This document shows, piece by piece, positions 4,930 through 40,534 of a DNA stretch of 40,534 bases. How positions within the stretch are numbered: position 1 is the first letter of the stretch; each line of letters starts with the position of its first letter. The stretch spans positions 1-40,534 of the forward strand of contig CAILKW010000726.1 of assembly GCA_903834845.1 (NCBI GenBank). The letters are read 5' to 3'. The stretch comes from an uncultured Bacteroidia bacterium (lineage in GTDB: Bacteria > Bacteroidota > Bacteroidia > Bacteroidales > Prolixibacteraceae). The translations under genes and the position numbers were made by a program. The notes beneath the pieces were generated by a model. That model did not search any database, was not told the origin of the DNA, and saw only the letters and a program-made list of their open reading frames with translations.

Positions 4930-7900
4930 ATGAAAAATATATTTCTTATATATCTGGTTCTTTTTGTCTTTACGTTAGGCGTAGTACAAGCCCAACCCAA
5001 AGCGAAACAGCCAACAGTAACGATCGAATCAGTGATCAAAGATGATCAGGGTCGACCTGTAGAGGGGGCCAAAATCTATGGCAAGGAGGGAGCAATTATT
5101 GTAAACAGCGATGCCAAGGGGCATTTTAAGATCAATGTACCGGAATCCACCGAACTTTTGATTGAGTCAGACGGCTATGAATCGCAGGTGGTGAGCCTTG
5201 AAGCAGCCCCTTCGGGGATAAGCTTAAAATCATCACCCTTTCTCAGGGGTGAAAACGACGATGTTAAAGTTGCTTTTGGTACCGTTAAGAAGGCTGATCT
5301 GCTGGGAGACATCTCGGTAATCAAACCCCCGGAGTTTATCGGATACGACAATACACAGTATGTTCCTGATGCCATTACCGGTCGCGTAGCCGGGATGTTG
5401 GGCAGCAACAACATTCGCGGACTTGGCGATGCTATGGTTGTACTGGACGGGATCCCGCGCTACTCGAAGATTTCGGACATCAACCTGAACATGGAGGAGA
5501 TCGACCAGATCACTGTGTTGAAGGATGCAGGCGCAGTGGCCCTTTACGGCACCCAAGCCCGCAACGGGGTGATTGTGATCACCACCAAGCGCGGCAAAGC
5601 TTACAAGCGTGACATAAATGTGTCGTTGCAGTACGGCATGGCCAAACCCAAGGCCCTTCCGCAATACCTTGGATCGGCCGATTATATGGAATTGTACAAC
5701 GAGGCCTCCGTTAACGACGGTCTGCCAGCCAAATACGATGCGACAACCATTAACAATTACCGCACAGGTAACCCTTACCGTTACCCAAGTGTCGATTATT
5801 ATTCGCCCGATTACCTGAAGTCGTTCCGGACCTATTCAAAATTAATGGCCGAGTTTTCGGGTGGTAATGAGAATACACAGTTTTATGCTAACCTGGGTTG
5901 GGGCCGCGACGGTAGCCTGCTGAATTTCGGTCAGGGTAAAGAGGCCAACAACAACAGGTTCAATGCCCGTGCGAATGTCGATTTCAAGATCACCGATTTC
6001 ATCAGGAGTAATGTTGACATTGCCGGTATCTTCGATTTTAATAAATCGCCCAAAGGAAGTTATTACAGCGACGCCTCCACACTGCGTCCGTACCTGTTCA
6101 GCCCGCTGTTGCCATTCGATTTGATGGAGCGCAAGAATGTAGCACTTCAGGCTTTGGTTAATGCACGCAAAAACCAGGTTGGGGATCAGTACCTGTTGGG
6201 CGGAACCCAGCAGAACCAGAGCACCCCGTTTGCCGATGTATATGCCGGGGGCATCAACCAGCCGGTTCGCCGTACGATGCAGTTCAACAACGGGATCAAC
6301 GTTGACCTGGGTATGCTCACCAAGGGCTTGTCGCTGAAGACCAACATGAGTTTCGACTTTTACAACTATTACAACCAGGAAATAGCCAATACCTATTCGG
6401 TTTACGCACCGGTTTGGTCGGCCACTTCGGATTCGATCACAGCACTTACGCAGTATGGTACCGATGCCCGTCCGGGCACCCAGAATGTGAGCTCACCCGA
6501 CTTTTTGCGCCGTATGGCCTATTCTGCCCAGATCGATTATAAGCGCAGTTTCGGGATGCACAACGTGGATGCCACCCTGCTCGGATATGCCGGTACCATC
6601 AAGCTCAAAGGAACACTCCAGCCCGACAAGAATACGCATGTGGGCCTGCGTCTGGCGTATAACTACAACAACAAGTACTATGCCGATTTCAGCAGTGCGT
6701 ATGTGAGTTCAAACCAGTTGCCCCAGGGCAACCGGGGTGCTTTTTCACCCACACTTTCGCTGGGCTGGGTGATCAGCAAGGAAGGCTTCCTGTCGGATAA
6801 CAAAAACATCGGTTACCTGAAGCTGAAAGCCTCGGCCGGAGTGGTTAACACCGACATGAGCCTGGGAGGTTTTTACTATTACGAAAGCGTGTATGGCGGT
6901 CAGGGCAGTTATTCCTGGTCCGACGGGGCATGGAGCAACGGCGGTATCGGATCGACCCGCGGAGCGAACAGTTCACTTGGCTTCGAGCAGCGGCAGGAGT
7001 TCAACGTGGGACTTGAAGGACAATTCTTTAACCGTTCGGTATTGATTGATGCCAATGTATTCAACACCCGTATCGCCAATAAATACACCCGCAGGGGAAC
7101 TCTGTACCCAACTTATTACAGTGACTTTATGCCATGGGACAATTACGACATCGACGGATACAGTGGCGCCGAGCTGGGCATTGCTTACTCGAAGAAAGTA
7201 GGCGATTTTGGGTTCGACCTTGGCGTAACGGGCATGTACTGGAACTCGAAAGTGGTCCAGAAAGACGAGATCTATTCGGAAGAGTACCTGTACCGCAAAG
7301 GAAACCCGGTCGACAGCTATTTTGGCTATGTTTCAGAAGGCCTTTTCACAGATGCAGCAGACATTAAGGACCACGCGTTCCAGACTTTTGGCGTTGTCAA
7401 ACCGGGCGACATCAAGTACAAGGACCAGAATGGAGACAAGGTGATCGACAGCAACGACCAGGTAAAAATTGGGCGGTGGAACGCACCGTTGACCTACGGG
7501 TTAAACCTGAAGCTGACGTACAAGGACTTCAGTTTGTTTGCCATCGGCACAGGCAGTAACGGAGCGGATGCCTTTTTGGGCGGACCGTACTACCGTCCCG
7601 ACGGCGATGTGAAATACTCGGTTATCGCCAATGAGCGATGGACACCGGCAACCAGTTCAACGGCAAAGTATCCGCGCTTAAGTTCCAAGACCAACACGAA
7701 CAACAACCAGACCTCCACGTTCTGGCAGTATGCCAACAACTCGTTCTCGTTGAACCGGGTCCAGCTCACTTACGAGATGCCCGAAAGCATCTGTAGCAAG
7801 CTGTCCATGAAAACCCTGGGCATTTATGTGAGCGGTTCGGGCATTGGCACGATCTCGAAACAGAACGATGTTCGTTACCTGAGTGTAGGTGTGGAACCAC

Positions 7901-24078: not shown

Positions 24079-26214
24079 ATGAAATTAAACCGAAAAATCA
24101 TTGCTGTTTTTGCTGCTTTACTGGCCATCTTTTTCTTCTCTATTGGAAATGAAACACAGGCTGCTGTCACGAAAATTTACGTTTCCACATCAGGGAACGA
24201 CACAAATTCAGGAACGAAAGAATTACCGCTGGCAAGCCTCAACGGAGCTGTCAACCGGCTGCTGACCTTGAGGAAGCTACAAACTTTTGCAGATCAGGTT
24301 GAAGTCATTATTGGTAATGGCGAATATTTTTTAACTGAACCTGTTGTGCTAAATTTCGACGATTCGGGAACCGAAAAATCGCCGGTTATCTTCAAAGCTG
24401 AGGAAGGCGCACATCCGGTTTTTTATGGTGGCAAAAAAAATCAGGGATTCGGGAAATTATCGGAAAAGCTTTGGCGGGCAAAAATACCGGAGGTCGCTGA
24501 ATACGACTGGTACTTTGAGCAATTGTATGTGAATGGCAAACGGGCTGTGCGGGCTAAATCGCCCAATAGTGGCCTCTATTCGCTGAACGATGTTTCCGAA
24601 ACGATTTTGGATAAAGGAAAAGGAAAGTTTCCTGAGCTGGCTGCTCAACGGTTGACGCTTTTCCCGGATGGGGCAGCGAAAGTTGCATCATTTACGAAGG
24701 GAGATTTTAGGGATGCAGTGATAACGTTTTATCATAATTGGGACAATACCCGCAAGCAAATCATTGGTTTTGACCAGGCCTCATCAGCCGCTTTCACTGT
24801 CGGACAGGGTATGAAACCCTGGAATAGCCTGAACAAAAAGACCCGGTATATCATTGAAAATTACAAGGCTGCGTTAGATACTTGTGGGGAGTGGTACCTT
24901 GACCGGACAGGTTATTTGTACTACATGCCTTTTCAGGGTGAAACGATTCAAAATCTGGAGGTAATGGCTCCGGTCACCGACCATTTTGTGATTATTCAGG
25001 GTGACGAAAAGACCGGAAGAAAGGTAGAAAATATCCGGATCGAGGGTCTTTCGTTTCAGGTTTCAGGATATAAAATGCCGGATGGAGGAAATGAACCAGC
25101 TCAGGCAGCTGCCCCTGTTGCCGCGGTTGTTCTGGCCGATTTTACCAAAAATATTCAGTTTGTAAATTGTGAGATTGCACATACAGGCATCAATGCCATC
25201 TGGTTTCGAAAAGCCTGTACCGATTGCAGTATTGAACATTGCTATTTGCATGATTTAGGTGCCGGGAGTATTAAAATAGGCGATTTTGTTCGACCTGAAA
25301 AGGCTGAAGATCTTACCCAGAATATTGTTGTCGACAACAACATCATCCGTTCGGGTGGTTTTGTTTTTCCGTGCGCAGTTGGAGTTACCTTGCTTCATGC
25401 CAGCGACAATCAGATCACGCATAACGAAATTGCTGATTTCCGCTATTCCGGCATTTCAGTAGGGTGGGTGTGGGGATATGCCTTCAGCCCGTCGAAACGG
25501 AACAAAATTGAGTTCAATCACATCCACAATTTGGGTTGGGGCGAATTATGCGATATGGGCGGGGTATATTGCCTCGGCGAATCAGAAGGGACTACCTTCA
25601 GCAACAATGTGGTTCATCATGTTTACTCATTCGATTATGGCGGCTGGGGACTTTATACCGACGAAGGTTCGACTGGCATTGTCATGGAAAACAACCTGGT
25701 GTACAATTGCAAAAGTTCCGGTTTTCATCAGCACTACGGAAAAGAAAACATTGTCAGGAACAATATTTTTGCCAACAACCTAAAAGCCCAGCTTCAGGCA
25801 ACACGGATGGAGGATCATTTGTCGTTTTCGTTTACCAATAATATTATTTGGTTTTCGACAGGCGATTTGCTGAGCAGCAACTGGGACAAAATCAAGCTTC
25901 AGTCCGACAAAAACTGCTATTGGGATACATGCACAAAAGATATCCGCTTCGGAAAGCTGTCATTTGCAGAATGGCAAAAATCGGGGAAAGATGCTCATTC
26001 ACTCATTGCCAACCCGCAATTTGCCGATCCTTCAGCCTTTGATTTCAGAATAAAAAACAAGGCAGTCCTGCGCAAAATAGGGTTTAAGGTTTTTGATTAT
26101 TCACAGGCTGGTGTTTATGGCTCGGATGAGTGGAAAAAGCAGGCCGTTTTTGATCAGGCAATTGCTAAATTATTCGATGAGGCCATTATCCGGAATGAAA
26201 AACGGGTTCAGTAA
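24079..26214 (+). CDS. Right-handed parallel beta-helix protein, GH141-like
   Basis: Signal peptide; IYVSTSGNDTNSGTKELPLASLNGAVNRL, GEYFLTEPVVLNFDDSGTEKSPVIFKAEEGAHPVFYGG; many NNxI/HNxI turns; CDMGGVYCLGES and GLYTDEGST near the C-terminus. Confidence 0.78.
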   Translation: MKLNRKIIAVFAALLAIFFFSIGNETQAAVTKIYVSTSGNDTNSGTKELPLASLNGAVNRLLTLRKLQTFADQVEVIIGNGEYFLTEPVVLNFDDSGTEKSPVIFKAEEGAHPVFYGGKKNQGFGKLSEKLWRAKIPEVAEYDWYFEQLYVNGKRAVRAKSPNSGLYSLNDVSETILDKGKGKFPELAAQRLTLFPDGAAKVASFTKGDFRDAVITFYHNWDNTRKQIIGFDQASSAAFTVGQGMKPWNSLNKKTRYIIENYKAALDTCGEWYLDRTGYLYYMPFQGETIQNLEVMAPVTDHFVIIQGDEKTGRKVENIRIEGLSFQVSGYKMPDGGNEPAQAAAPVAAVVLADFTKNIQFVNCEIAHTGINAIWFRKACTDCSIEHCYLHDLGAGSIKIGDFVRPEKAEDLTQNIVVDNNIIRSGGFVFPCAVGVTLLHASDNQITHNEIADFRYSGISVGWVWGYAFSPSKRNKIEFNHIHNLGWGELCDMGGVYCLGESEGTTFSNNVVHHVYSFDYGGWGLYTDEGSTGIVMENNLVYNCKSSGFHQHYGKENIVRNNIFANNLKAQLQATRMEDHLSFSFTNNIIWFSTGDLLSSNWDKIKLQSDKNCYWDTCTKDIRFGKLSFAEWQKSGKDAHSLIANPQFADPSAFDFRIKNKAVLRKIGFKVFDYSQAGVYGSDEWKKQAVFDQAIAKLFDEAIIRNEKRVQ

Positions 26215-26244
26215 AATCTTAATAAACAGAAGAAAGAAGTAACT

Positions 26245-28569
26245 ATGAAAGCATCTCATTCCCTCATTATTCTATTATTTGTCTTATCTGCTTTGTCATG
26301 CGAAGCACAAAATACTTCTTTAAAGAATGATATGCTGAAAGAAGTAAATGTTTTGATGGGTTCAGGAGCAAACGGAGCAGTTATTCCGGTGGCTGTCGTT
26401 CCTCATGGAATGGTTCAACTAGGACCTGATACCCGAAATTCAGGGAGCGGCTATCATTATGACGACCGAACGATCATCGGATTTTCGCACACACACAAGA
26501 GTGGCGGCGGATGCGGTGATTTCCAGGATATTCTGCTTCAGCCTACAACAGGGGAACTGAAATTCAATCCGGGGAATGAAAATGAACCGAATTCCGGGTA
26601 CCGGTCGCGGTTCAGCCATCAGGAAGAACATGCAGAACCGGGTTTATACCAAGTAAAGCTCTTGGATTATAACATTGATGCGGCGTTAACTGCAACGAAA
26701 CGCTGTGGCTTTCATCAGTACAGGTTTCCTTCAGGAAAAGATGCACACATCATATTAGACCTGGTTCATGGCAATGCCGGGGCTTGTACCGTCGTTCCGG
26801 AAGACAGTTATGATACAACGACAGTAGCATTTTTAAGGGTTATTGATGATCACCGGATCGAAGGATATAGAGTGTCCAGTGGATGGGCCGATTCGATGCA
26901 TGTCTATTTCGCGATGGAGTTTTCAAAACCATTCAGAAAGCATGGTATCGAATCAAACGGCGCATATCGGCCGAATGCGATGGAATCTTCAAGCCTCCAC
27001 ATTAAAGCGAATTTCGACTTTGACGTAGACAAGGATAGCACCGTTTTGGTGAAAGTTGGCATATCTCCGGTAAGTACCGCCAATGCCTGGTTGAACCTAA
27101 AAGCTGAAATCTCCGGATGGAATTTCCGCGATGTGGTTGAACAAAACAAGTCGGAATGGAGAAAAGAACTAAGCCGGTTCAGCGTTGAAGGAGGGAAAGA
27201 AAAACAACGCAGAATGTTTACGACAGGTCTGTATAATGTCCTCATTTATCCCATGTTGTATATGGATGTCAATGGGGATTACCGGGGGCCTGACCATCAG
27301 GATTACCGGGCAAACGGATACAACCATTACTCCGGATATATTGGAACCTGGGACGTTTTTCGGGCAGCCAATCCGTTGCTGACATTGATGGATCCTGAAG
27401 TGGCCAACGACTATGTAAAAACAATGCTATCGCATTTTGAAATATGTAAACTGCTACCAGTTTGGGTAGTTGCCGGCGAAGAGACACATACCATGCAGGG
27501 GTTTCATTCCGTTCCAATATTTGCTGACACTTACTACAAAGGAATCCGGAATTATGATGTACAGAAGGTCTATGAAGCAGTCAAGGCAACGGCGATGAAA
27601 GATACTTTTGGCCTGGATATGCGGAGGTTCGTAGGATTACTCCACTATAAAAAACACAATTATGTGCCAGCCAATCTGGAATACGAATCTGTCGCAAAAA
27701 CTCTGGAATATGCTTACGATGATTGGACTGTGGCTCAGTTTGCCAAATTGTTGGGACATCAGAAAGATTATGAATATTTTATAAAACGAGCAGAAAATTA
27801 TAAGAACGTGTTTGATAAAAGCACCAATTTTATGAGAGGGCGGATGGAGGATGGATCATGGCGCACTCCATTTGACCCGTTTTCTTCAAATCACCGGTTC
27901 GACGATTTTATGGAAGGAAACGCCTGGCAATGGACGTTTTTTGTTCCACACGATCCGGTTGGGCTTGCTAAATTAATGGGAGGGAAAGAAGTGATGGCTA
28001 AGAGGCTCGATTCCCTGTTTATGGTAAAGCCACAAAAAAAATACGTTTTCGCTTCAGGCGACATGAGTGGGATGATTGGTCAATATGCTCATGGCAATGA
28101 AATTAGCCAGCATATTCCCTATTTGTATAATTATCTGGGGCAACCCTGGAAAACGCAGGAAAGGGTGCGGATGATTATGACCTCTCAATATGATAATACT
28201 CCGGAAGGATATTGCGGCAACGAAGATACGGGGCAAATGTCGGCCTGGTATATCTTCAGCGCAATGGGCTTTTATCCGGTAAATCATGGACAAGGGCAAT
28301 ACGTCATTGGCACACCCTTGTTCGACCGGGTGGAATTTAATCATGGAATGGGAGGGAAGCTGATTATTGTTGCCAGAAATAACAGTGAGAAAAATTTCTA
28401 TATCCAATCGGTCAGGCTAAATGGCAAAGCATATACAAAAACCTGGTTTCAACAAAGTGATTTGTTCCATCAAGGTAACGTAACCATCGAATTTGAAATG
28501 GGGGACAAACCCAATTACTATTGGGGGATAGGAGCGGCAAATTGTCCTTCGTCCATGTCAAAGCAGTGA
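26245..28569 (+). CDS. Glycoside hydrolase family 92 (alpha-mannosidase-like)
   Basis: GFSHTHKSGGGCGDFQDILLQP, YSGYIGTWDVFRAANPLLTLMDPE, FMRGRMEDGSWRTPFDPFSS, EGNAWQWTFFVPHD, GYCGNEDTGQMSAWYIFSAMGFYPV. Confidence 0.95.
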   Translation: MKASHSLIILLFVLSALSCEAQNTSLKNDMLKEVNVLMGSGANGAVIPVAVVPHGMVQLGPDTRNSGSGYHYDDRTIIGFSHTHKSGGGCGDFQDILLQPTTGELKFNPGNENEPNSGYRSRFSHQEEHAEPGLYQVKLLDYNIDAALTATKRCGFHQYRFPSGKDAHIILDLVHGNAGACTVVPEDSYDTTTVAFLRVIDDHRIEGYRVSSGWADSMHVYFAMEFSKPFRKHGIESNGAYRPNAMESSSLHIKANFDFDVDKDSTVLVKVGISPVSTANAWLNLKAEISGWNFRDVVEQNKSEWRKELSRFSVEGGKEKQRRMFTTGLYNVLIYPMLYMDVNGDYRGPDHQDYRANGYNHYSGYIGTWDVFRAANPLLTLMDPEVANDYVKTMLSHFEICKLLPVWVVAGEETHTMQGFHSVPIFADTYYKGIRNYDVQKVYEAVKATAMKDTFGLDMRRFVGLLHYKKHNYVPANLEYESVAKTLEYAYDDWTVAQFAKLLGHQKDYEYFIKRAENYKNVFDKSTNFMRGRMEDGSWRTPFDPFSSNHRFDDFMEGNAWQWTFFVPHDPVGLAKLMGGKEVMAKRLDSLFMVKPQKKYVFASGDMSGMIGQYAHGNEISQHIPYLYNYLGQPWKTQERVRMIMTSQYDNTPEGYCGNEDTGQMSAWYIFSAMGFYPVNHGQGQYVIGTPLFDRVEFNHGMGGKLIIVARNNSEKNFYIQSVRLNGKAYTKTWFQQSDLFHQGNVTIEFEMGDKPNYYWGIGAANCPSSMSKQ

Positions 28570-33943: not shown

Positions 33944-36178
33944 ATGAGATCATTAATTTGCTTAATACTAAGCATTGTCTTGCTGTTTTTAGTTACAGGT
34001 ACAACAAACGGACAGTATGGAATTGGTAAAAAATTGCAATCTGCAAAAGCAGGTTTTGTGTCACTCGACGGGCAGGTTTTGCCCAAGGGAAACCTGGTTG
34101 AAGCTGATGGCGCCATCCATCAGTTCAATTCACCTGTGTTGCGACTGGTACGTACAAAGTCAAAATCCCCCAAAGGTGCTGTTTTGTTGCTTCCGGGAGG
34201 TGGATACGAACTCATCAATGCGAAAAACGAGGGTGAAAACGTATCCCGGTTCCTGAATGCGGAGGGTTTTGATGTTGCTATCCTTGAATATCATGTTGGC
34301 ACCGGTTCCGGGATTCGCAACCTGGCCTTGGCTGATGCCCTGAAAGCGTTCCGGCTTCTTAAAACAAGTCAGAAGACACTTGGGTTTCATGGTGATCGTC
34401 TGGCAATCATGGGTCTTTCTTCCGGTGGTCATCTTGCTGCACGAACAGTCCAAAAACTCGGAGAAAAGGAACAACCCGATGACCTGATCCTTATTAGTCC
34501 AACCAATCTGGATGAAACTACAACCGGAACGGTGTTCCCTGCCGTAATGCCTCCGGTTCTGCCAACTGCACGGCTTTTCACGTCATTTTCTGCCAACGAC
34601 AATAGTCCGTGGATTAAAAGTTGTGAACAATACACCAAAATTTGGAAGGGTTACGATGGTTTGGCATCTTTCCATTTATTGCCTGATAGTGCCGGTGTTT
34701 CGTATAGCGATACCGATCCAGTTGATAGCAAACTTAAACTGGCAGGCCTGCTTAAAACATTTCTTGAAGAGAAGCCCGAAATTTCAGTTTCATCACAAAA
34801 TCCTGCGGTGGTGCCTGTTGCCGGATATGCAACAAAACGACATGCCGAAAAATTAGCTCTTGTTGCCAAAGAAAAGTTTGACCTGATCATGATCGGGAAT
34901 TCAATCACCAATAATTTCGACAAACCTGAATATCAACTTGTGTGGAACCAGTTTTTTACACCGCGAAAAGCATTGAACCTTGGATACTCTGGATATCGCA
35001 CCGAAAACATTATCTGGAACATTCAAAACGGGGAACTTGATGGGCAATCGCCCAAAGTGATTGTTTTGGAAATAGGTACTAATAACATTGACGAAAAAAA
35101 TTACCCGACACGCCATACAGCCGGTCAGCTTGCCGGAGGCATCGGAGCCATTGTAAAGTTGTTGTGCGAAAAGTGTCCTGATGCCAAAATTATCGTGCTG
35201 CGGTGTTTCCCGGGGTGCTACGGTGGTCCGAATCCCACTTCCCATCGTGTAATTCTCGAACGCGCTTCCGGTCTGGTTTCCAGACTTGCTGACGGAAAAC
35301 ATATTTTCTATTGCGATGTGAACCATGTGTTCCTCAATCTGGATGGATCGATCAACCGTGATATGATGCCCGACTGGCTGCACCCAAGTCCTGCCGGGGC
35401 AAAAGCCTGGGCGCAGGCCATGGAACCTTTGCTTTCAGAGCTGATGGGCGACAAATCCCTGGATACGGTAATTCCGTCTAATTCAGCTATTGTTCCGGCA
35501 TCGAAACTGGAGAATGATTCTTATAATTGGTGGGATCGCCATGCTGAAGTCTTACGCATCAAAGATTCGATCAACCCTGAAATTGTTTTGATTGGTAACT
35601 CTATCACCCATTTCTGGGGAGGAGAGCCACGGTTGAAATATGCAGACGGAAGACCCCGGATCCCGAATTGTCCAAATACTTGGGCTTCACTGTTTGACAA
35701 CTACCGCGTGCTGAACCTCGGCTTCGGTTGGGACCGTACGCAAAACGTGCTTTGGCGCCTCGACCACGGAGAACTTGACGGGCTTCACCCACGAACGGTC
35801 ATCATCCATATCGGCACCAACAATACCAGCCAAACCCAAAATGCACGGATGAACACTGCCACAGAAATCGTCGAAGGAATAAAAGCCATTTGTCAAAGGG
35901 GCCGATCCAAAGTTCCCGGGGCAAAAATCATTTTGATGGCGATAATGCCACGAGAGCAAAGCCCAACCCATCCGCGCCGGATACTGATCAACGAGATTAA
36001 CCAGAAACTGGAACTGTTTGCAAAAGAAAACAACATCACGTTAGTGGACATCGGGTCGAAAATGCTTGCTCAGGATGGCACACTTCCCAAAGACATCGCC
36101 AACGATTTCTGTCATCCAACAGAAAAAGGCTATCAGATTTGGGCTGATGGCATTCGTTCACTTATTTCTGAACCCTGA
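33944..36178 (+). CDS. Three-domain secreted esterase: alpha/beta hydrolase + two SGNH/GDSL domains
   Basis: Signal peptide; LLLPGGGYE and MGLSSGGHLA (GxSxG); SGNH-1 MIGNSITNNF...LNLGYSGYRTENI...EIGTNN...DWLHPSPAG; SGNH-2 LIGNSITHFWGG...LNLGFGWDRTQNV...HIGTNN...DFCHPTEKG. Confidence 0.88.
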   Translation: MRSLICLILSIVLLFLVTGTTNGQYGIGKKLQSAKAGFVSLDGQVLPKGNLVEADGAIHQFNSPVLRLVRTKSKSPKGAVLLLPGGGYELINAKNEGENVSRFLNAEGFDVAILEYHVGTGSGIRNLALADALKAFRLLKTSQKTLGFHGDRLAIMGLSSGGHLAARTVQKLGEKEQPDDLILISPTNLDETTTGTVFPAVMPPVLPTARLFTSFSANDNSPWIKSCEQYTKIWKGYDGLASFHLLPDSAGVSYSDTDPVDSKLKLAGLLKTFLEEKPEISVSSQNPAVVPVAGYATKRHAEKLALVAKEKFDLIMIGNSITNNFDKPEYQLVWNQFFTPRKALNLGYSGYRTENIIWNIQNGELDGQSPKVIVLEIGTNNIDEKNYPTRHTAGQLAGGIGAIVKLLCEKCPDAKIIVLRCFPGCYGGPNPTSHRVILERASGLVSRLADGKHIFYCDVNHVFLNLDGSINRDMMPDWLHPSPAGAKAWAQAMEPLLSELMGDKSLDTVIPSNSAIVPASKLENDSYNWWDRHAEVLRIKDSINPEIVLIGNSITHFWGGEPRLKYADGRPRIPNCPNTWASLFDNYRVLNLGFGWDRTQNVLWRLDHGELDGLHPRTVIIHIGTNNTSQTQNARMNTATEIVEGIKAICQRGRSKVPGAKIILMAIMPREQSPTHPRRILINEINQKLELFAKENNITLVDIGSKMLAQDGTLPKDIANDFCHPTEKGYQIWADGIRSLISEP

Positions 36179-36264
36179 CAGAACCAAAAATTCAATATCA
36201 ATACGATATCGACAGTATTAAGTTACTGAAATCCAATAGTGGAAAAGATTTACAATATTAAGAA

Positions 36265-38933
36265 ATGAAAAAAATATTATTCTGTCTTATTCTTGGGTCG
36301 TCCTTAATTAATGCGATTGCTGGCCAAAGTAATGTTGCATTTTATGTATCCCCGCAAGGGAAGGATACAAATCCCGGCACTTTAGACAAGCCCTTTGCAA
36401 CGATTGAAAAGGCGCGTGATATTGTTCGGGCAGAGCTAAAGTCAAATAAAAATGAACCAATCACGGTTTTTTTACGCCAAGGTACTTATAATCTCAAAAG
36501 GAGCTTCGAACTGAATGATCTTGATTCGGGGAGTGAAAACTCGCCTGTTGTTTACAGCGCATATCCCAATGAAGAAGTTCGTTTCACTGGCGGAATTTCA
36601 ATTCCGGTTGAAAAGGCAAAAAAAGTTACCGATAAAGCAATTCTGTCAAAGCTGGTTGTGGCTGCGAGGGATAAAATTCTTCAGGTAAACTTAAAGTCAT
36701 TGGGAATCAGCAACTATGGAGTCCTTCACCCCAGAGGATTTGGCCGCCCTTATCAACCGGCATCAATGGAACTTTTTTGTAACCGCGAGGGAATGCAACT
36801 TTCCCGCTGGCCGAATGATAGTTTAGTCCGAATTGGTACAGTTCTCGATCCTGGTTCTGTACCCAGGAATGGCGATTATTCACATCGTGGAGGCAGGTTT
36901 ACTTATGATGTCCGGCGGCCTGCCCGATGGACGAAAGCCAAAGATATCTGGATTTCAGGTTTTTTCAACACGGGTTATGCTGATGATGCCGTAAGGATTG
37001 CAAATTTGGATTTGAACAACAAAACAATTACCACCGAACAGGAGACCATGTACGGTTTTGCTGGGAGCAAAGAATTCCAGAGTTGGTACGCTTTTAATCT
37101 TCTGGAAGAAATTGACCGGACCGGTGAATATTTTATCGACAGGGTGCGTGGTATCCTTTACTTTTTCCCTCCAGCAGAAAACTTGCAGACTATTGAATTA
37201 TCGGTTTTGGAAGGACCCCCGGTCGTTATTGAAAATGGTTTGCACATTCATTTCCGGAATATCACCTTCGAATGTTCCAGGGGAATGGGAATGTATATTG
37301 AAGGTGGCAAGGCTGATTTTGTTGAAAACTGTGTTTTTCGGAATCTTGGTTTGGTAGCGGTTTGTATTGGGAAAGGGATTCTTCCGTTTAAGGATTTACA
37401 GCATTCAGGAACAGGAACACCCACATCGCGCCTTTTGGGAAACATCAGCGCCCATAGCTATGACCATACTACTTTCAACCGTGAAGCCGGTACAGACCAT
37501 GTCATTTCAGGTTGTCATATTTACAATACAGGTTCCGGGGGAATCAGCCTCAGTGTCGGCAACAGACTGACTCTTGAAAAAGGGAACAACAGGGTTGAGA
37601 ATTGCCGGATTGAAACCGATAACGCCAAACTGCGCGAAATATTTTACAGTTCGCTCTACTTTACCAAAATGTACCCCATGCTATGGATGGATGTTGACGG
37701 ACAATACCGGGGTGGCCGATCAAAAAGTACATACAGCAAAAGGGTATAACTATTACGGTGGTCACATGGGATTTTGGGATGTTTACCGGGCAGCCTATCC
37801 ACTCCTGATGATCACCAATCCTGATGTGGTAAATGACGTTGTAAAAACAAGTCTGGCATTTTATAAGGACTGTGGGCAACTTCCGGTTTTACCCGTTTTT
37901 GGTGTTGAAACATACCAGATGACTGGCTTGCATGTGATGCAGTTTATTGCCGATTGTTATTCCAAAGGAATTCGCAATTATGATGCCGAAGCCGTATATG
38001 CTGCCATGAAAAACACCATGTTGCGAGACACCACCGGCTTTTCGATGCGCTATTTCACCGGATTGAAAAACTACAAAAAGTATGGTTACGTGCCGGCCGA
38101 TCTCGAAATGGAAGCTACCGCACGCACCCTTGACTATGCCTATAACGACTGGGGCATAGCCCAAATTTCCAGGATGTTAGGCAAAACCGACGATTACCAA
38201 TATTTTATTAAAAGAGCCGAATCATACAAAAAATGTGTTTGACCCGTCAACCGGTTTTATGCGCGGAAGATTAGCCGATGGAAGTTGGCGCACTCCTTTC
38301 GACCCTTATTCTTCAGGACATCGCAGGGATGATTTTTGCGAAGGAAATGCCTGGCAATGGTCATTTTCAGTGGCTCATGATGTAAGAGGACTGGCAAAAC
38401 TATACGGCGGAAACAACAAATTTTGCGATAAGCTTGACAGCCTGTTCAAGGCATCGTCCAAAATTGCAGGCAAAAATGCATCAGGCGATATATCTGGCTT
38501 GATTGGGCAGTACGCGCATGGAAATGAATCAGGTCATCATATCGTTTATATGTACAACGAATTGGGTGAACCAAAAAAACGCAACGTTATGTGAATCAAA
38601 TATTGACAACACTCTATGATTCCACTCCTGATGGAATTTGTGGCAATGAAGACACAGGGCAGATGAGTGCCTGGTATATTTTTAGTTCATTGGGGTTTTA
38701 CCCGATGAACCCAGTTTCAGGTAAGTACCAGATGGGGGCACCACTTTTTGATAAGGCTAAATTCAATTACCTTCAGGAAGGGTTTTTCAATAAAAGCAAA
38801 CAACTTGTCGGAATCCAATATCTATGTGAAAAAAGTTACTCTGAACGGTCAGAAATTAGACCGTACTTATATCCCATTTAAAGAACTATTAAATGGAGGT
38901 GAGCTTGTGTTTGATATGACTGGTAAAGACTAA
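36265..38933 (+). pseudogene. Chimeric pseudogene: beta-helix (GH141-like) N-terminal part fused to GH92 C-terminal remnant, with several frameshifts
   Basis: ORF 36265-37749 starts as a beta-helix protein (VAFYVSPQGKDTNPGTLDKPFATIEKARDIV) but ends in GH92 sequence (ETDNAKLREIFYSSLYFTKMYPMLWMDVDGQYRG). GH92 homology continues in other frames in ORFs 37574-38242, 38235-38594, 38591-38881 and 38748-38933. Confidence 0.9.
37600..38933 (+). pseudogene. GH92 remnant (about the C-terminal 60%), split over three frames
   Basis: Segments align in order to the intact GH92 at 26245-28569: GFWDVYRAAYPLLMITNPDV, DYQYFIKRAESYK/VFDPSTGFMRGRLADGSWRTPFDPYSS, GICGNEDTGQMSAWYIFSSLGFYP, NIYVKKVTLNGQ. Confidence 0.9.
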
Positions 38934-38945
38934 AAAACAAAAATC

Positions 38946-39050
38946 ATGATATTCCTTAAATCCATATCAGGCTTTCGGGGTGCCTTAGGCAGCTCTTTTG
39001 GTGAAGGATTGAGTCCTCTGGATGATTCAAGCTGTTTAGATGTCCTTTAA
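38946..39050 (+). pseudogene. 5' stub resembling a phosphoglucomutase/phosphoglucosamine mutase-type gene
   Basis: ATG at 38946: MIFLKSISGFRGALGSSFGEGLSPLDDSSCLDVL*. The KSISGxRGxxGxxxGEGLSPLD pattern is typical of the N-terminus of Bacteroidetes phosphohexomutases. Confidence 0.5.
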
Positions 39051-39296
39051 AAGTGTTCCAAAGTATAAAATCCCGGACAGAGAATTAGGACTGCTTTACC
39101 CCTTCATGAAGATAGTCATACACTATACTGTTTGGCTTATGCCTGTCCCTACATTGAGAGGAAAGGCGACTGTCCACTCAAGGCTATTGTACAATTGCCT
39201 TTTAAACAAAAGGTATTATCGATCAATGGCTTGAGCAAAGAAGAAAAAGAAATTATTTTGGAGCATCACAAAGCATGTTCAATAAAAAGAGAATAG
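39040..39296 (+). pseudogene. Small Cys-containing protein of unknown function, split by one frameshift
   Basis: Frame of 39040: MSFKSVPKYKIPDRELGLLYPF; then frame of 39105: HEDSHTLYCLAYACPYIERKGDCPLKAIVQLPFKQKVLSINGLSKEEKEIILEHHKACSIKRE* to 39296. A 1-nt deletion in 'taccccttcat' would explain the change. Confidence 0.5.
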
Positions 39297-39330
39297 TTAG
39301 TGTTTTAATTTAGGTTCGTTTGTTTAGTTC

Positions 39331-39363
39331 ACCCCCTTTGCCGGAAACGGCGAGGGGGGTTTT
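39331..39363 (+). terminator. Rho-independent terminator
   Basis: accccctttgccg-GAAA-cggcgaggggggt followed by ttt: 13-bp stem (two G-U pairs), GNRA-type tetraloop, T-run. Confidence 0.85.
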
Positions 39364-39478
39364 CGTAATGGTATTTCGGGTAGGGTTCCGAACCAAGATC
39401 ACTTATACATCAGATATTCAATAATAAAACAATATTTTTGGTAGATATTAAAAACAAACGAAAATTTCTGGAAAAAAA

Positions 39479-39514
39479 CTATGTGCCTAATATTTAAACC
39501 TATGTGCCTAATAT
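39479..39514. repeat. Two direct copies of ctatgtgcctaatat, 21-nt period
   Basis: ctatgtgcctaatat at 39479-39493 and 39500-39514, separated by ttaaac. Confidence 0.9.
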
Positions 39515-39537
39515 GTTAAAAAAAACACTTAGGTAAA

Positions 39538-40534
39538 TTAAGCCATTCCCTCCTCAAGCCACTCCACAATATTCCTTTTCTTTTTCGAAAAATTAATACC
39601 AATCAGCGTAATAGGTTTACCATCAGATAAATAAGGTATTGCATATCCTTTTTCTTTGATCTGGGCAATAGCAACCTTGGCTGGTTGGTCCATTTTGAAC
39701 TCGAAAATATAGATATGGTCACGGTTCACGATTACAGAGTCGATGCGGCCTTCGTTCATGTGTACCTCATTGTGGATTTCAGCCCCGAGCAAGCGGAAAA
39801 CCGAATAGATTATATTCTGGTAGTTTTCCTCCATATTGCTGCGGTTGGAGTATGGGATGGCTGCTATGTGGCTTTTCAGTATGCGCTGAATATCTTTTGT
39901 ATTGTTTTTAATCAATGCCATCTGCAACTGTTTAATTTCTGATGTAACCACATCGAGGCTTCGTTCAGCCATCGAACTTACCAAATGCTTTTCAAATGCA
40001 GTTTCAATTTCCATATTCGGGAACCGTAGATAATAAACAGGCTCGTCCATAAGCATTTCCACCCTATCGATAGTAAGGTAGCCCGTTTGTAGCAAAAGCG
40101 GAGCTACCATCATTTGGGTCACATCAAACGAATCAAGTATCACGCTATCCACCGGACGGAACAAAGTATCAAAAAAATCGATGTTCTGTCGTTTTAAAAC
40201 CTTGAAGATAAAGGATGGCCTGCCAGTTGAGAACCAGAAATTATTGAATCTGCCACCTTCATTAATAAACATTCCCAACGACACAGGGTTATATACGGTT
40301 AGCGCATTTTCATGGAAGCGGAATCCATTGTACCATTTTTGTATTTTTTCACGGTATTCGGTCCTGTCAACTCTGTTTTTGTCAGCCAATTCATCTATCT
40401 GTTCGCCAAAGTAATGTTCCACCTCTTCCTGGGTGTAGCCGTACATGGTTGCAAATGGCTCACTAATGGTGATATCGCGGAGAGTGTTGAGTTTGGAGAA
40501 AACCGATACTTTCGAGAATTTGGTCACACCGGTC
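39538..40534 (-). CDS. AAA-ATPase-like / PD-(D/E)XK nuclease superfamily protein (5' end outside window)
   Basis: TGVTKFSKVSVFSKLNTLRDITISEPFATMYGYTQEEVEHYF, IQKWYNGFRF, VYNPVSLGMF, nuclease-like C-term GRIDSVIVNRDHIYIFEFKM. Frame stays open to the window edge; the GTG at 40527 is not the real start. Confidence 0.88.
   Translation of the reverse strand, partial: TGVTKFSKVSVFSKLNTLRDITISEPFATMYGYTQEEVEHYFGEQIDELADKNRVDRTEYREKIQKWYNGFRFHENALTVYNPVSLGMFINEGGRFNNFWFSTGRPSFIFKVLKRQNIDFFDTLFRPVDSVILDSFDVTQMMVAPLLLQTGYLTIDRVEMLMDEPVYYLRFPNMEIETAFEKHLVSSMAERSLDVVTSEIKQLQMALIKNNTKDIQRILKSHIAAIPYSNRSNMEENYQNIIYSVFRLLGAEIHNEVHMNEGRIDSVIVNRDHIYIFEFKMDQPAKVAIAQIKEKGYAIPYLSDGKPITLIGINFSKKKRNIVEWLEEGMA

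Follow-up and report, generated by a model that had tools for sequence, protein, structure and literature searches.

GH92 enzymes such as BT3130, BT3965 and BT3990 are Ca2+-dependent exo-alpha-mannosidases. The locus described here (36265–38933) resembles them in a catalytic domain that can be followed from profile position 27 and carries the EGNAWQW and GNEDTGQMSAW motifs, but it lacks the N-terminal beta-sandwich domain and its frame is broken four times. Its N-terminal 449 residues belong to the fold family of the GH141/BT1002-type right-handed beta-helix proteins and PDB 9rx2, whereas the C-terminal third, which presumably holds the catalytic aspartates, is missing; the GH141 membership of its full-length relatives is itself putative. 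A third point of comparison is provided by ordinary bacterial fusion or deletion pseudogenes with frameshifts (singleton frame transitions; PMC3711429). The locus is like these in having recent indels, no conserved frameshift site and a lesion that is found in no homologue, and it differs from them in that two unrelated enzyme genes are fused in frame ahead of the frameshifted part. We conclude that the chimera is a genuine young pseudogene of this ordinary kind, which probably originated when about 1.7 kb spanning a beta-helix/GH92 junction was deleted.

The window, i.e., the whole stretch of DNA analyzed, is an entire contig of 40.5 kb from a fragmented assembly (8.2 Mb, 851 contigs, 6% contamination) of an uncultured Bacteroidota-type bacterium. 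It contains a polysaccharide-utilisation cluster on the + strand with SusC/SusD-type genes, GH97, a beta-helix protein, GH92, and GDSL esterases, as well as a D-lyxose isomerase, an FGGY kinase, and a mannitol dehydrogenase. The chimeric locus is the final gene of this run, at its 3′ end. An Rfam search of positions 36000–40534 gave no match. The neighboring genes that matter for the comparison are:

24079–26214, + strand: intact beta-helix gene of another subfamily (~23% identity to the beta-helix of the chimera), presumed in the initial annotation to be its paralogue
26245–28569, + strand: intact GH92 gene, 54–58% identical to the GH92 remnant
33944–36178, + strand: intact GDSL/alpha-beta hydrolase esterase gene, directly upstream of the chimera

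The 5′ half of the locus is an open reading frame that closes at a stop downstream of the first frame change:

36265–37749, + strand: chimeric ORF of 494 aa, consisting of a beta-helix N-terminal part and a short in-frame GH92 stretch
36265–37611, + strand: beta-helix part (residues 1–449 of ~715), 73% identical without gaps to the C56 paralogue
37606–37614, + strand: fusion junction between beta-helix NCRI and GH92 IETDNAKLREIF, with an Ile codon common to both sides

Judged by eye, the N-terminus resembles a signal peptide. The closest relative of this half is not the beta-helix gene at 24079–26214 but C56, an intact 715-aa beta-helix protein encoded on another contig of the same genome (L029, positions 5165–7309, – strand). 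Identity to C56 drops from 26/30 to 2/30 residues across nt 37611, showing that beta-helix homology ends sharply at residue 449, and GH92 similarity begins in the same frame at nt 37609. The chimeric beta-helix/GH92 structure proposed initially is thus confirmed, and the passage between its halves is continuous in frame as described, even though only about 35 homologous GH92 codons are read before the first frame change. Because the Ile codon is common to both sides of the junction, any microhomology there amounts to only a few bases. In the relatives examined, the beta-helix frames are separate genes (mostly ~680–750 aa). The beta-helix relatives show similarity to PDB 9rx2 and a weaker one to the GH141 protein BT1002; the profile match to 5mqp (E 2.6e-20) lies mostly in the N-terminus, and 9rx2 was matched better. 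The catalytic aspartates of BT1002 are D523 and D564 (PMC10154630), which align by motif with D508 and D546 of C56 in a region where the alignment is weak. Both positions lie past the cut at residue 449, so that the chimera has no counterpart of the GH141-type catalytic Asp pair.

GH92 homology extends from 37609 to 38933, where the natural stop lies, and changes frame four times on the way (frames 1, 2, 3, 2, 3):

37609–37713, + strand: GH92 piece 1, frame 1, starting at catalytic-domain profile position 27 (homology, Pfam)
near the G4 run at 37709, + strand: frame change 1
37718–38230, + strand: GH92 piece 2, frame 2, with 54% identity to 26245–28569 and 57% to G070
38228–38233, + strand: frame change 2, at an A6 run
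38235–38579, + strand: GH92 piece 3, frame 3, carrying the EGNAWQW motif (Pfam, homology)
38573–38579, + strand: frame change 3, at an A7 run
~38582–38767, + strand: GH92 piece 4, frame 2, carrying the GNEDTGQMSAWY motif (Pfam, homology)
near the T5 run at 38783, + strand: frame change 4
~38772–38933, + strand: GH92 piece 5, frame 3, ending at the natural stop (Pfam, homology)

All four frame changes fall where the initial annotation had placed them (at 37709, 38228, 38573, and 38783), and aligning the remnant to the GH92 at 26245–28569, as it had suggested, gave a match far from chance (E 4e-105) in the order of frames listed. The five pieces score above the curated cut-off for the PF07971 catalytic domain and cover profile positions 27–463 in three frames, whereas PF17678, the GH92 N-terminal domain, is absent at the locus. 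No single continuous GH92 reading frame exists, and there are no nonsense codons inside the pieces. Both catalytic motifs are kept in the remnant; the catalytic acid (Glu) and base (Asp), with roles as in PMC5930347 and PMC10167667, were mapped by motif only. The GH92s of the relatives examined are separate genes of mostly 730–1000 aa. Compared to intact homologues, both genes are truncated at the junction, and the second is also disrupted by four frame changes.

These lesions could in principle be sequencing errors, and the junction an assembly chimera. Each frame change coincides with or adjoins a run of 4–7 identical bases, nonsense codons are lacking, and the assembly is fragmented and partly contaminated, as such an explanation would have it. 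However, contigs C459, C184, and C660 form a chain in which each of the two joints is an exact 141-bp overlap; this points to a de Bruijn assembly with k=141 and thus to short reads, which would produce few homopolymer indels. A false join in such an assembly would presumably need common sequence, yet the 20-mers spanning the junction do not recur in the own-genome DNA fetched, except in the C56 homologue just upstream. The four indels lie within 1.1 kb, whereas 15 other near-full-length GH92s of the genome have no stop, a stop occurs in only 2 of the 98 SusD matches, the remaining long genes on this contig are open, and the beta-helix half keeps three 7-base runs intact. The assembly contains neither the complementary halves nor a second near-identical or unfused copy of the region. 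Contig C459 breaks off within a GH92 N-terminus and was considered as the missing half, but it was rejected because its exact 141-bp overlap with C184 assigns it to a different GH92. The lost pieces are thus not present elsewhere in the assembly, because the genome has no orphan C-terminus of a beta-helix and the GH92 of C459 continues on other contigs. That single GH92 gene is split over G000:C459, C184, and C660 (L092, L093, and L095), reflecting k-mer ends of the assembler rather than biology. As in the initial annotation, we consider sequencing error unlikely, and the same holds for chimeric assembly; with the chance of either being quite small, the lesions are treated as real.

The initial annotation traced the pseudogene to a duplicate of the pair at 24079–28569. 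This origin is rejected: the two beta-helices are only ~23% identical and the GH92s 54–58%, and in protein trees the beta-helix of the chimera and C56 form a fully supported sister pair, whereas the GH92 remnant groups with a GH92 from another genome in the genus (moderate support, 84/88) and not with that of the window. Pairs of the same arrangement do exist in congeners. In G010 (L177, 4942–9259) and G011 (L178, 137–4551), a beta-helix gene is followed on the same strand by a GH92 gene only 1–2 bp away, and a third such pair, interrupted by the contig end, is found in G015 (L179). The subfamilies of these pairs differ from those of the chimera. Beta-helix followed by GH92 is a recurrent two-gene module in these congeners, and the existence of such pairs in other subfamilies makes an ancestral neighbor pair plausible.

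The simplest origin, we infer, is the loss of ~1.74 kb plus spacer from a neighbor pair. The beta-helix and GH92 genes would have been adjacent in this order, and one deletion (~266 beta-helix codons, ~313 GH92 codons, and the spacer) would have created the fusion, removing the GH92 N-terminal domain together with the beta-helix C-terminus, in which the catalytic region probably lies. The GH92 remainder, left without a frame of its own, would then have gained, or already had, single-base-type indels at short homopolymers. The extent of this loss agrees with the initial estimates of 1.5–2 kb across the junction (~1.7 kb is supported) and of about 310 GH92 N-terminal residues (~313 by alignment).

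An intact ancestral pair combining these two subfamilies, for which a search among relatives had been recommended, was not found in samples of relatives, the family, the order, and the phylum. A first scan of GTDB contigs returned nothing, and a second identified 80 loci with relatives of this beta-helix, none of which (0/80) had a GH92 within the fetched flank; this zero was checked by positive controls. The C56 beta-helix has no GH92 neighbor, and a plasmid collection gave only weak GH92 matches. The failure to find such a pair would also fit a larger rearrangement or recombination that joined two non-adjacent genes. We think this route doubtful, although it keeps some modest probability, since the strand and order of the two halves equal those of the congener pairs and the junction is in frame. 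Deletion between neighbors thus remains our preferred origin.

The age of the pseudogene was assessed from its substitutions, which show no excess amino-acid change and no nonsense codon in either half. The protein-tree tip of the GH92 remnant (0.56) is within the range of near intact GH92s (0.52–0.66), and that of the beta-helix half (0.19) is close to its intact sister (0.17). Of 73 sites that are otherwise invariant, the remnant differs at 5, compared to 1–11 in intact genes. In simulations, the lack of nonsense codons was compatible with neutral change of up to ~0.05 per site, which is an upper bound only; neutral decay limited to this extent means that the pseudogene is young. Because relaxed selection leaves no trace in the amino-acid record, the case for decay is carried by the indels and the truncation. 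The initial description of the locus as now decaying therefore applies only in the sense of a very recent process, without detectable relaxation in its substitutions.

The order of events is less clear-cut. All four indels are in the GH92 half and none of them (0/4) is in the beta-helix half, even though the halves are of about equal length and have similar homopolymers. This distribution would be explained by a two-step variant of the deletion model, in which the GH92 was already a frameshifted pseudogene when a later, very recent deletion joined to it a beta-helix gene that had been functional until then. However, the imbalance does not reach significance (one-sided chance 0.06–0.08), and substitution is equally low in both halves. 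We regard the two-step order as quite possible, although somewhat short of an even chance.

From its sequence, the ORF is expected to yield at most a secreted truncated beta-helix with a non-functional tail and no enzyme activity, because the GH141-aligned catalytic segment and the GH92 N-terminal domain are missing. In GH92s of solved structure, this domain contributes to the active site (PMC5930347). Absence of excess amino-acid change in both halves and retention of the GH92 catalytic motifs would also be expected of a functional multidomain protein, or of programmed frameshifting, with the fusion under selection. None of the relatives examined has a beta-helix-GH92 fusion, which could have identified a real domain combination, or any frame change; no stop or frame change occurs at the corresponding places in the homologues listed, so that no conserved frameshift site is seen. 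A set of four shifts that go both ways does not fit recoding, and with both the GH92N domain and the C-terminus of the beta-helix gone, a selected fusion is very improbable. Equally hard to credit is a truncated beta-helix that is still made and secreted for a selected non-catalytic role (e.g., glycan-binding), a role that, if true, would account for 449 untouched codons next to a frameshifting GH92 part. The young pseudogene remains the better reading of the locus.

Other features were observed in the window and the genome. Positions 39105–39540 are a dispersed segment that occurs in at least nine other places of the genome (74–88% identity) and in several of its copies adjoins AAA-ATPase/PDDEXK_9-type genes. 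A small ORF (LAYACPYIERKGDCPLKAI...) within the segment is 61–62 aa long with an ATG in L182 and L184; here, the aligned frame has no ATG. This ORF matched no Pfam or NCBIfam entry. A short repeat (ctatgtgcctaatat...) at 39473–39525 is also found on several other contigs, including three tandem copies on G000:C420 (1247–1570; spacing ~130–140 bp). SusD_RagB matches with an in-frame TAG at G000:C174 3005–3292 and C737 3938–4309 are further possible pseudogenes.

For annotators, the locus is a warning, since an automatic pipeline would probably annotate a 494-aa 'beta-helix/GH92' protein and two or three short GH92 genes in this place. It raises no new question; its value is as a clear young case in which a polysaccharide-utilisation cluster has lost a gene.
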